NCBI GenBank assembly: GCA_016839555.1 | Contig: JAEOUA010000003.1 | Span: forward strand, 248,001-312,000 | Length of the DNA stretch: 64,000 bases | Source of the DNA: Promethearchaeota archaeon | GTDB lineage: Archaea; Asgardarchaeota; Lokiarchaeia; Sigyniarchaeales; SOKP01 | Direction of reading: 5' to 3' | Shown here: positions 1-5,613 of the stretch, piece by piece | How positions within the stretch are numbered: position 1 is the first letter of the stretch | How the letters are laid out: every line of letters begins with the position of its first letter | Notes under the pieces: generated by a model | Databases searched by the model: none | What the model was told of the DNA's origin: nothing | What the model saw: only the letters and a program-made list of their open reading frames with translations | Position numbers and translations under genes: made by a program

Positions 1-336
1 GATAAGTATTTGTTAGATGATGCAGAAATAGTTATTATTTCATATGGATTACCTGTGAGAGCAAGCTATCGCGCAGTGGATATTGCCCGAAAGGAAGGAA
101 TAAAGGTTGGGATTTTTAGATTAATTACTGTATGGCCGTTTCCCGAAGAAAAAGTGAGAGAAATTGTAAAAAATGCAAAAGCTGTAATTGTACCTGAACT
201 AAATTATACAGGCTATATTGCAGAACAAATAGAAAGAGTCACTAATATTGAAACCCCAGTGATTAAAATTCCGAATGTATGTGAATTTCATCATCCAGAT
301 CTAATTCTTAAACATATAAAGGAGGTGGCAAAATAA
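1..336 (+). CDS. korA: 2-oxoacid:ferredoxin oxidoreductase alpha subunit, C-terminal part (truncated by window edge)
   Basis: Open frame from base 1; C-terminal KorA-like sequence (GLPVRASYRAVDIARKEGIKVGIFRLITVWPFPEEKV...ELNYTGYIAEQIER); directly followed by korB and korC. Confidence 0.9.
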   Translation, partial: DKYLLDDAEIVIISYGLPVRASYRAVDIARKEGIKVGIFRLITVWPFPEEKVREIVKNAKAVIVPELNYTGYIAEQIERVTNIETPVIKIPNVCEFHHPDLILKHIKEVAK

Positions 337-337
337 A

Positions 338-1261
338 ATGTCTGGTATAGGTCCAATGTATCCTCAAGAAAAACCAGAACATCCGTATTTAGATAAATCA
401 TATGCAGGATATTTAATTGGTAATTATTCTTCACGATTTTGTGCAGGATGTGGCTATGGAATTATTGCACAACTCTATACCCGAACCTTTGAAGATGAAG
501 GATTAGATCCTAAGAAATTTCCTTTAATTGTAGGGATAGGTTGCTATAGTCAGATAATGTTACTGGTCCATTATTCTGCACAGAAGGTTCTAACTTTGCA
601 TGGTAGAGCACCAGCAATTGCTACTGGGATAAAGATGGGAAATCCAGAAATGAAACCAATCATTTTTTCAGGTGACGGGGATGCATTAGGAATAGGAGGA
701 AATCATTTCATACATTTATGCAGAAGAAACTTGGATGCTGTTATATTTATTTTTAATAATAGCATATATGCTATGACAGGAGGACAAGGAGCACCTACAA
801 CGCTTTGGGGAGCAGAGAGTACCACGACTCCCTATAAGATGTTTGAAAATCGTATAGATGGAGTAGATTTAGCACTAGCTGCTGGTGCTACCTATGTTGC
901 ACGTACTACCGTAGCTCATCCAAGAACATTCATGAAATATTTCAAAAAAGGTTTAAATCATAAAGGTACATCAGTTATTGAAGTTATTGTACCTTGTGTG
1001 ACCTATTTTGGCAGAAAAAATGTCAATACTTTGGGATCTGAATATTCTGAATTACAAGAAGAAGCTGAAAAGATGGAGACCGCAGGAAAGATGATAGATT
1101 GGATAAAGAAAAACACAGTAAGAATAAATCAAGCACAATTTATGACTGAAAAAGAGTTATTTAATAAATATATAATAGGTGAATTTCGTTATGATCCTGA
1201 TAAACCAGAATATTCCGATCAATATAATAGTATTATAAAAATCGCACAAGGAAGGGAATAA
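338..1261 (+). CDS. korB: 2-oxoacid (2-oxoglutarate-type):ferredoxin oxidoreductase beta subunit
   Basis: TPP-binding beta subunit motifs FCAGCGYGII, GIGCYS, LHGRAPAIATGIK, SGDGDALGIGGNH, NNSIYAMTGGQ. Confidence 0.95.
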   Translation: MSGIGPMYPQEKPEHPYLDKSYAGYLIGNYSSRFCAGCGYGIIAQLYTRTFEDEGLDPKKFPLIVGIGCYSQIMLLVHYSAQKVLTLHGRAPAIATGIKMGNPEMKPIIFSGDGDALGIGGNHFIHLCRRNLDAVIFIFNNSIYAMTGGQGAPTTLWGAESTTTPYKMFENRIDGVDLALAAGATYVARTTVAHPRTFMKYFKKGLNHKGTSVIEVIVPCVTYFGRKNVNTLGSEYSELQEEAEKMETAGKMIDWIKKNTVRINQAQFMTEKELFNKYIIGEFRYDPDKPEYSDQYNSIIKIAQGRE

Positions 1262-1263
1262 AC

Positions 1264-1863
1264 ATGGCGAGATATGAAATTCGTATTGTAGGATTTGGAG
1301 GGCAAGGTGTTATTACATTAAGTAAAATGATAATAACAGCATCTTCTCTTTATGATGGATTAGCCGCAACTCAAACAGAAGCCTATAGCGCTGCCGCAAG
1401 AGGAGGAAAATGTTGGGCAGAAATAGTGGTAGATTTGGACGAAACTCAAAAACTTATTGATTATCCAAAAGCTTTAGAACCTTATGATTTTTTAATCATT
1501 CTCTCAGATGAAGGGGCATCTGATGTAAAGAAAAGTGATTTAAAAAAAGGTAAAAATACAGGATACCTTATTTGGGATACATCAACAATCAAGAAGTTTC
1601 GAACGGCTAAAAGAGTGAAATCTTTTGGTTTTCCAGTTCAAAAAACATCCTTAGAAAAATTTGGTAATACCGTCTTTGGAAATTCCATTCTATTTGGTGC
1701 ATTTACTGCTATTTCAAAAATATTCTCGGAAGATTCAGCTATTAAAACAATTAAGCGTTTTGTACCATCAGGCACACTTGAAACTAATTTAAAAGCGTTT
1801 GAATTAGGAAAAGAAGAAGCAGAAAAATTTCTCATAGAATTAGATGAAAATGGAGGAAAATAA
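1264..1863 (+). CDS. korC: 2-oxoacid:ferredoxin oxidoreductase gamma subunit
   Basis: GFGGQGVITLSKMI...TQTEAYSAAARGGKCWAEIVV typical of the gamma domain; operonic with korB. Confidence 0.93.
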   Translation: MARYEIRIVGFGGQGVITLSKMIITASSLYDGLAATQTEAYSAAARGGKCWAEIVVDLDETQKLIDYPKALEPYDFLIILSDEGASDVKKSDLKKGKNTGYLIWDTSTIKKFRTAKRVKSFGFPVQKTSLEKFGNTVFGNSILFGAFTAISKIFSEDSAIKTIKRFVPSGTLETNLKAFELGKEEAEKFLIELDENGGK

Positions 1864-3688
1864 AATGTTCTTGAAAAGAATAAAAAAAGGCTGGAAAGAA
1901 TTAGAGACAGAAATAATAGAATCAGGTAAATGTGTTTATTGTGGAGCGTGTGGAGCATTTTGCGCCAATATAAAATTTAATCAGGAGAGGGAGGAACCTT
2001 ATGATGATGGTTCTTGTGAGGAAATGAATACCTGTAGGGATGGTTATGGAGTCTGTTATAATTTATGTCCCAAAACCGGAACTGATATTATCCCTCTGGA
2101 TTTATTGGATAAATGGGTTTTTGAAAAAGAACATGATAAAATTTTAGGTCATTATAAAGATATTTTATCGGTTAAAGTTGAAGATTCTTTTAAACAAAAG
2201 TTTGATGATAACAACGCAGATCCAATAACTGCTCTATTAGCCGTTGCTATGGAAAATAATGAGATCGATTGCGCAATATTAAATAAAACAGATGAATTAT
2301 ATAGACCCGTCCCTTATATAGCAAAGAAAAAGGATGATTTAAAATCGTTTGTAAATAATAACCTAAGTCAAGCACCCACTTTATCTCTGATTGGTGAGGC
2401 AATAAATGAAGGATATGTAAATATTGCTGTTGTTGGAAATCCTTGTCAAATTCAAGGTGTAAGAAAAATTCAAAACCATCCGAGATTTGATTTTGAAGCT
2501 TATGATTTGATTTCTTTAGCCATAGGAACATTTTGTTTTGGAAAATTCCAAAATGAACAATTATCAAAGATTCTTCAAGAACATGATATCGATCGAAAAA
2601 ATATTAGAAAAACAGAAAAAGATGAAAACAATTTCAAAATAAGGATTATTACAAATAATGGAACAAAAGAAATTAGATTGAATCAATTGTATGATAGTTC
2701 CATTCGAAATGCTTGTTTTTCTTGCTCTGATTATACTGCTTCCTTTGCAGATATCTCTGTTGATAGTATTGGAAGTGAAAATGGATGGACCACCGTAATA
2801 ATCAGAACCAAAAAAGGTCAAAGTATTTTTGTTTCTGCAGTAAAGAAAGGATATTTCAAAACAAAAGAGTTGGAGCAAGATAAGAGGGAATTAATATTAG
2901 ATATTACCAGAGCGAGTGTTGATATCGTAGAAATTGAGGATATAATAGAGCATTCCCCCAATATTAAGAGTTTTTGGATCCGAAATCCCCGAATAGCAAA
3001 AGCTTATAGACCAGGAAATTTTGTAATTCTCTGGATACCAGATGTTGATTTCTTGCCAATGTCTATTTCGAATGTTAAAGGAAGTCTTTTAGAAATAACA
3101 GTTGAGAGAATAGGAGAAGGAACCTCAAAATTATTTGATATGAAGAAAGATGATAAACTAGGAATACGAGGACCCTTTGGAAATAGTTGGAATTATGAAG
3201 ATGCTTCAAATATCCTTGTAATTGGAGGAGGATTAGGAGTTCCTGCTCTATCAACGGTGATCCAACCATTAAAATTAAACAATAAGAATGTTTTTGTAGC
3301 TATCGGAGCAAAAAATCAAGCATCATTACTGTTTGAAGAAAGATTTAAAGAATTGATACCAAATACTTTATGTACTACAGATGATGGTTCTGTTGGTAGA
3401 AAATGCTATGTTACCGATCCAATTGAAGAAATAATTGATCAAAATAACATAGATCTCATTTTAACTTGTGGACCAGAAGTTATGATGAAAAAAATATTAG
3501 AAATAGCAAATAGGAAAGGAATTGAAATACAAGCATCATTAGAAAGGAAAATGAAGTGTGGTGTAGGATTATGCGGATCTTGTTGTATAGGAGTGAAAAA
3601 TGATATAACTGTTTGTAAAGATGGTCCTATTTTCAATTCAGAACAATTAAATAGCTTTCCACAATTTGGCACATACAAGAAGGAATAA
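1864..3688 (+). CDS. Fusion: FrhB/FdhB-type flavo-iron-sulfur domain + PyrK-like FAD/NAD(P)/[2Fe-2S] electron transfer domain
   Basis: N-term CVYCGACGAFC...CRDGYGVCYNLCPKTG and VVGNPCQIQGVRKI (FrhB/FdhB family); C-term RPGNFVILWIP..LPMSIS, GGGLGVPAL, CGPEVMMKKI, MKCGVGLCGSCCIG...VCKDGPIF (PyrK). ORF track starts at 1844, but ATG at 1864 fits better after korC stop. Confidence 0.87.
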
Positions 3689-5063: not shown

Positions 5064-5444
5064 ATGGTAGATATTGAATATGTAAATCCCGGAACTCCGG
5101 TTGCTGGACCTTATACACCTGGAGTCCAAGTAGGAAATCTTCTTTTTGTATCAGGTCAGGGTTCTGCACCAGGCATTGATAATATTAAGGATCAGACTAA
5201 CTCGGTACTTGAAAACATCAAAAAGATTGTTGAGGCTGCTGGATGCAGCGTTGCTGATATCGTAAAAACAACCGTTTTTTTAAGCGATATTAAGGATTTT
5301 GGTAAAATGAACCGAACTTATAAGAAATTTTTTGATAATAATGGTGCTGAAGGAAAATATCCAGCTCGAACAACTATCGAAGTAGCAAGCTTACCTGTTC
5401 CTAGCATGTTAATAGAAATTGACGCAATAGCCGTAATAAAATAA
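5064..5444 (+). CDS. ridA: RidA family (YjgF/YER057c/UK114) enamine/imine deaminase
   Basis: GPYTPGVQVGNLLFVSGQG...TVFLSDIKDFGKMNRTYKKFF...YPARTTIEVASLPVPSMLIEIDAIA. Confidence 0.93.
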   Translation: MVDIEYVNPGTPVAGPYTPGVQVGNLLFVSGQGSAPGIDNIKDQTNSVLENIKKIVEAAGCSVADIVKTTVFLSDIKDFGKMNRTYKKFFDNNGAEGKYPARTTIEVASLPVPSMLIEIDAIAVIK

Positions 5445-5502: not shown

Positions 5503-5613
5503 TTAAAAGAAAAAAAGAACACTGCGAGAACAACCGTTCAAGTTGCATATTTACCTGCTACTGGAATGTTAGATGAAATTGAAGTTATAAGATTACAATT
5601 TATTGGTTCTTAA
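5503..5613 (+). pseudogene. C-terminal remnant of a second RidA gene
   Basis: In-frame peptide TARTTVQVAYLPATGMLDEIEVIRLQFIGS* aligns with the intact neighbour's ARTTIEVASLPVPSMLIEIDAIAVIK; no upstream RidA body or start. Confidence 0.7.

Follow-up and report, generated by a model that had tools for sequence, protein, structure and literature searches.

The 2-oxoacid oxidoreductases known as KORs are textbook ferredoxin enzymes. One KOR-type enzyme, the NADH-linked phenylglyoxylate dehydrogenase (Pad), has an NAD-linked flavoprotein subunit. Lokiarchaeia, which carry the system described here, are related to the archaeal lineage that gave rise to eukaryotes, and the fate of the low-potential electrons released when Asgard archaea oxidize 2-oxoacids is a central question in models of their syntrophy and of eukaryote origin.

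FrhB modules on ferredoxin-type enzymes are already known. Two of them, CODH zeta (8RIU) and FwdI (8RJA), are F420-reducing subunits on CO2-releasing enzymes of Ca. Ethanoperedens thermophilum (PMC11493965). The FrhB-like zeta subunit of the ethanotroph CO dehydrogenase (CODH) docks by its cluster domain and relays electrons, providing a template for such an arrangement (PMC11493965). In ANME-1, the FrhB paralog FrhB6 is encoded in pyruvate:ferredoxin oxidoreductase clusters and has been read as F420-reducing, with no mention of a PyrK fusion (PMC9012536). For KOR itself, a survey of archaeal fusions reports only korA-korC and korB-korC fusions (PMC11237513). Neither an FrhB-PyrK fusion nor a fifth KOR gene in Lokiarchaeia or other Asgard archaea is described in the literature searched, which gives partial coverage.

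Here we describe a gene of this kind at the end of a Lokiarchaeial KOR operon. On balance its product is probably a dedicated electron-output subunit of one 2-oxoacid (likely 2-oxoglutarate) oxidoreductase, reducing NAD(P)+, a reading that we hold with modest confidence.

A fifth gene in a KOR operon

The window, a 64,000-nucleotide stretch of DNA, comprises bases 248001-312000 of contig C1 in a genome of 3.74 Mb, and its close relatives are Lokiarchaeota/Lokiarchaeia MAGs. It opens, on the plus strand, with the 3' end of korA (1..336; 2-oxoacid:acceptor oxidoreductase alpha subunit; PFOR_II, E 1.5e-21), the full gene being found at locus L010 7155-8336. Next come korB (338..1261), which encodes the beta subunit with TPP and [4Fe-4S] (TPP_enzyme_C, E 4e-30), and korC (1264..1863), which encodes the gamma subunit (POR domain, E 7e-24) and whose stop codon at 1861-1863 lies just ahead of the next ATG. 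This ATG, at 1865, is the likely start of the fusion gene (1865..3688, plus strand), a single uninterrupted open frame that encodes 607 residues. A GGAGG that resembles a ribosome-binding site (1852..1856, plus strand, by direct reading) is located 8 bases ahead of it; an alternative ATG at 1844 would run into korC. The sequence-only reading had given 1864-3688; its end stands, and its start is moved by one base. Farther downstream, the window contains a RidA-like gene (5064-5444), and the translation of a stretch directly behind it (5520-5590; TARTTVQVAYLPATGMLDEIEVI) resembles the 3' end of that gene and is probably a decayed tandem copy.

The fourth core subunit is encoded outside the window. 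At L010 6869-7150, about 850 bases ahead of the window, korD encodes a 93-residue protein with 2x[4Fe-4S]; in this genome, as in nearly all relatives, the gene precedes korA. Thus, the operon order is korD-A-B-C-fusion. The earlier view of an operon of korABC plus fusion had the order right and was missing korD, which is invisible from the window. The presence of korD upstream of korA also rules out the idea, raised by the window when read by itself, that the N-terminal cluster domain of the fusion substitutes for KorD, and since all four standard subunits (alpha, beta, gamma and delta) are separately present, the fusion is not one of them. At the usual korD start position (L010 6869-6871) the codon is ATT here and ATG in several relatives; the ATT may be an alternative start codon, or else a point mutation or an error. 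Upstream of korD, on the minus strand, are a LutB-like LUD/4Fe-4S gene and a CCG (LutA-like) gene (L010 4446-6486). Such genes adjoin the KOR operon in 17 of 41 loci, usually divergent from it, and a connection with the oxidation of lactate or of some other 2-hydroxyacid is possible.

The placement of the fusion gene at the operon end, as first read, holds throughout. In all 41 loci read, it sits on the same strand directly behind korC, with korA and korB present as far as the contigs reach; the exception is G027, in which korB is on a separate contig. Across 83 genomes of the class, 44 have both the fusion and the KorB ortholog, 32 have neither, and 7 are discordant. Six of these were inspected and correspond to contig ends (G062, G065, G063), an N gap inside korB (G042) and fragments (G071, G075); in the seventh (G026) the match starts at base 5 of its contig. 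Together, the conserved position in the kor operon and the joint presence or absence of fusion and KorB uphold the proposed tie to this KOR.

Other korDABC operons of the class do without the fusion. None is found behind korC in the more distant operons (KorB identity 43-53%), nor in the second korDABC of the same genome, in keeping with the earlier remark that this is not a recognized standard KOR subunit. In a tree of KorA and KorB, the 37 KORs linked to a fusion group together in one clade (ultrafast bootstrap 98), which contains no KOR that lacks it. Given its fusion-free korDABC relatives, the fusion is therefore a fifth gene that was gained once, and the simplest history is that an existing korDABC operon acquired it in one event and that the two were then kept or lost together.

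These results bear on whether the fusion serves this KOR at all. It could instead be a stand-alone ferredoxin:NAD(P)+ reductase, joined to the KOR by co-transcription only, that works for the ferredoxin pool at large and does not dock to the KOR, and the presence of korD in the operon means that the KOR can reduce ferredoxin without the fusion. Against this stand its strict tie to one of several KORs, its absence beside the genome's other korDABC, and its coming and going with this KorB. We consider it distinctly improbable, and a dedicated output subunit remains the preferred reading.

The fusion, or a recognizable piece of it, is present in about 48 of the 83 genomes, mostly at full length; near-full-length copies occur in more than 35. 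Identity among orthologs is 59-67%, falling to 41-42% in one family of the Sigynarchaeales type. Elsewhere in the phylum, no full-length match is found at E <= 1e-60, and only PyrK-like pieces match. Likewise, in a contig scan seeded with PyrK peptides, fusions among the best 80 loci are confined to Lokiarchaeota/Lokiarchaeia and Sigynarchaeum/Sigynarchaeota MAGs. A split FrhB plus PyrK form was also sought: in other genomes, the top loci with PyrK alone (L258-L263) have neither a KOR nor an FrhB neighbor. The chance that an assembly error or frameshift merged two genes, a danger named by the sequence-only reading, is negligible: the many orthologs already refute it, and no split form tied to a KOR turned up at the examined loci with PyrK alone. 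FrhB-type domains are also present within 938-residue frames in two relatives (G057:C33:8817-9776 and G059:C201:29220-30173), which suggests that further FrhB fusions exist in Lokiarchaeia.

Domains of the fusion and the remodelled FrhB pocket

The fusion protein has three parts. Residues 1-92 (1865..2140, plus strand) form a ferredoxin-like domain that aligns with the cluster domains of CODH zeta in 8RIU and FwdI in 8RJA; its eight invariant cysteines (C23, C26, C29, C33, C51, C57, C64 and C68) are read as the ligands of predicted 2x[4Fe-4S] clusters. Residues 93-345 (2141..2899, plus strand) form the FrhB/FdhB-like domain, defined by Pfam, a residue table and Foldseek (8riu_B), with the invariant [4Fe-4S] cysteines C194, C224, C284 and C287. 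Residues 353-607 (2921..3685, plus strand) form the PyrK-like domain, assigned by Pfam, NCBIfam, alignment and Foldseek (5jca_S, TM 0.80), in which the FAD region, the NAD(P) motif GGGxG (454-458) and the [2Fe-2S] cysteines C565, C570, C573 and C584 are all invariant.

Multiple comparisons support this assignment. The Pfam models FrhB_FdhB_C (E 1e-37), FrhB_FdhB_N (4e-5), NAD_binding_1 (8e-5) and DHODB_Fe-S_bind (2e-12) all match past cut-off, as the sequence-only reading had anticipated; another family that it named, FAD_binding_6, is absent from the Pfam matches listed. The C-terminal half passes the cut-off of the NCBIfam PyrK equivalog (256 vs 224 bits), whereas the NCBIfam FrhB and FpoF models match under theirs. 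Among PDB structures, those closest to the first half are the FrhB-like subunits of the CO dehydrogenase (8RIU) and formylmethanofuran dehydrogenase (8RJA) of the ethanotroph, and those closest to the second half are NfnS and PyrK. An AlphaFold model of moderate quality (pLDDT 74, pTM 0.67) agrees on the two folds, with target-normalised Foldseek TM scores of 0.75 to 8riu_B and 0.80 to 5jca_S. Thus, one polypeptide does join an FrhB/FdhB module to a PyrK module. In an alignment of 31 sequences, the 8 N-terminal, 4 FrhB [4Fe-4S] and 4 PyrK [2Fe-2S] cysteines are invariant and the PyrK FAD/NAD motifs are intact. The loss of ligands that could have undone the first reading is therefore excluded for the Fe-S clusters and the PyrK half, but it is partly seen in the flavin/F420 pocket of the FrhB half.

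In published structures, a QDGG loop and Lys75-Tyr76 are assigned to the FAD, and Ser209 and a GKGK turn to the F420 side; the later of the two papers withdrew the earlier F420 density and retained a conserved access channel (PMC3591093, PMC3930138). In the fusions, Q24, Y76 and S209 are each kept in 0 of 39 sequences and G26 in 3 of 39. By comparison, 26 FrhB paralogs of the class (control L242 being partial) keep Q24 in 24/25, Y76 in 24/26, S209 in 18/25 and G26 in 25/26. Of the two Lys in the GKGK turn, the second is nearly always lost in the fusions; most fusions keep the K75-type Lys and G27, and all 39 keep the four FrhB [4Fe-4S] cysteines. The fusion therefore has the fold and the four-Cys [4Fe-4S] site of the FrhB type without its pocket signatures (QDGG, Tyr76, Ser209, GKGK). 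Because the altered motifs (A-G-P, G-Y-K-P-S-Q and C-F-G-T) are themselves conserved among fusions, the pocket of most orthologs seems to have been remodelled, not left to decay. The copy in the window ranks with the most divergent, carrying N-A-D-P and N-N-N-L. Judged from these residues, the pattern would fit a domain that has lost its F420 site and kept its clusters as a wire.

An alternative is that the enzyme serves two acceptors, the FrhB half binding FAD and reducing F420 and the PyrK half reducing NAD(P), so that electrons from the KOR would have access to both pools, or that it also acts as an F420H2:NAD(P)+ oxidoreductase. Among solved structures, the FrhB half is closest to 8RIU and 8RJA, which reduce F420 (PMC11493965), and the K75-type Lys and G27 persist in most orthologs. 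In addition, the F420-synthesis genes CofH and CofD are present in the genome, and a search of it for an NpdG-type F420:NADP reductase gave no match, so that a use would remain for an enzyme joining F420 and NAD(P). On the other hand, the losses of Q24, Y76 and S209 extend to every ortholog compared, the pocket is altered further still in the window's copy, and the same genome has canonical FrhB paralogs. The earlier suggestion of an F420 role is thereby weakened, with the cofactor's synthesis genes still in its favor, and we regard a two-acceptor enzyme as unlikely. Output to NAD(P) is the reading taken up below.

The genome also contains two adjacent FrhB paralogs (G000:C10:209784-211897; L238 and L237). 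One of them, L238, is a second non-canonical FrhB, lacking Gln24 and Tyr76 and keeping the Fe-S cysteines. In family f3 (genomes G006-G013, in the same order), CofD is missing in 7 of 8, no strong CofH match is found, and there is no fusion. This gene content suggests that F420 synthesis may be lost or absent in the family; since it is one clade, the joint absence is weak evidence.

Proposed electron output from KOR to NAD(P)

The substrate of this KOR is likely 2-oxoglutarate, judging from its nearest solved relatives: for KorA, 2-oxoacid and 2-oxoglutarate:ferredoxin oxidoreductases (1yd7), and for KorB, the beta subunit of a 2-oxoglutarate:ferredoxin oxidoreductase (8ys5_C). In one relative, genes for methylmalonyl-CoA mutase and an isocitrate/isopropylmalate-type dehydrogenase lie beside the KOR operon (L049 11120-14445), and in another, an aconitase-family pair does so (L055 12149-13966).

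We infer a path in which the 2-oxoacid, together with CoA, would be oxidized at the TPP of KorAB, and electrons would pass through the [4Fe-4S] of KorB to the 2x[4Fe-4S] of KorD. From KorD they would reach the two N-terminal [4Fe-4S] clusters of the fusion, either directly by contact in a putative complex or via soluble ferredoxin, then the [4Fe-4S] of the FrhB-like domain, which may or may not hold a flavin, and finally the PyrK domain, whose [2Fe-2S] and FAD would pass them to NAD+ or NADP+. The net result would be an NAD(P)-linked 2-oxoacid dehydrogenase made from a ferredoxin-type KOR. With the PyrK FAD/NAD motifs and the Fe-S ligands intact, the link of KOR electrons to NAD(P) suggested at the outset is likely.

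PyrK modules serve other electron partnerships as well, a point against the KOR-to-NAD(P) reading. The fusion has the FAD/NAD(P) motifs and [2Fe-2S] cysteines of the PyrK type, with KOR neighbors in place of PyrD. A separate pyrD-pyrK pair elsewhere in the genome indicates that it is not a pyrimidine enzyme, and a role as PyrK of the pyrimidine pathway is ruled out.

A single chain with two potential flavins and a long chain of clusters, its PyrK half related to the NfnS of a bifurcating enzyme, also raises the idea of flavin-based bifurcation or confurcation, or of a reverse enzyme that drives KOR carboxylation from NAD(P)H and F420H2. This we find very hard to credit. In Nfn, it is the large subunit that carries the bifurcating flavin, and not the PyrK-like subunit, and established redox potentials allow 2-oxoacid oxidation to reduce NAD(P) or F420 without bifurcation. 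Moreover, Pfam and NCBIfam detect no HdrA, NfnL/GltD, Etf or NuoF-like domain in the fusion, the FrhB FAD pocket is altered, and carboxylation from donors at -320/-360 mV would be uphill without another driver. The bifurcating role that had been floated for the fusion is thus unsupported, as these models find in it no domain of a known bifurcating flavin site.

With respect to the NAD(P) reading, a more specific and more tentative proposal, held at somewhat less than even confidence, is that the five-part KOR (KorDABC plus fusion) serves Lokiarchaeia as a 2-oxoglutarate dehydrogenase linked to NAD(P). In this scheme, a former F420-reductase module would have become an internal wire, possibly without F420 or an FAD of its own, that feeds the fused PyrK. 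If true, an NAD(P)-wired KOR would fill the role of a 2-oxoglutarate dehydrogenase using archaeal parts, and an F420-reductase module would have been re-used as an electron wire. Because the pocket is remodelled, a single recombinant protein would suffice to test directly whether the acceptor is F420 or NAD(P).

Comparison with known systems

The four core subunits encoded by korDABC correspond to those of the 2-oxoglutarate:ferredoxin oxidoreductases OorDABC and KorDABC, although OorDABC has no fifth subunit. The flavoprotein subunit of Pad is likened to the fusion by description, and KorA falls far under the PadG cut-off. Like PyrK, NfnS and the sulfhydrogenase gamma subunit, the fusion has FAD, an NAD(P) motif and [2Fe-2S]. 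Its four cysteines are as in PyrK, whereas NfnS has an Asp in place of the first [2Fe-2S] Cys. Unlike all three, the fusion is joined to an FrhB-like partner and linked to a KOR.

On the FrhB side, a cluster domain with the FrhB fold is common to the fusion, FpoF (FpoF/FqoF) and Fsr, and relatives of the FpoF, FrhB and Fsr types are recovered; unlike FpoF and FrhB, the fusion lies under their NCBIfam cut-offs and has lost the pocket signatures. The FrhB6 paralogs of ANME-1 share with it, by description, the location of an FrhB-family gene in a 2-oxoacid:ferredoxin oxidoreductase cluster (PMC9012536). CODH zeta and FwdI differ in having no PyrK domain, in their canonical F420 pocket (QNGG/QDGG, Tyr76) and in their partner, CODH or Fwd. 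They are nevertheless the best match in both sequence and fold, and like the fusion they place an N-terminal 2x[4Fe-4S] and an FrhB-type domain on an enzyme that is usually ferredoxin-linked.
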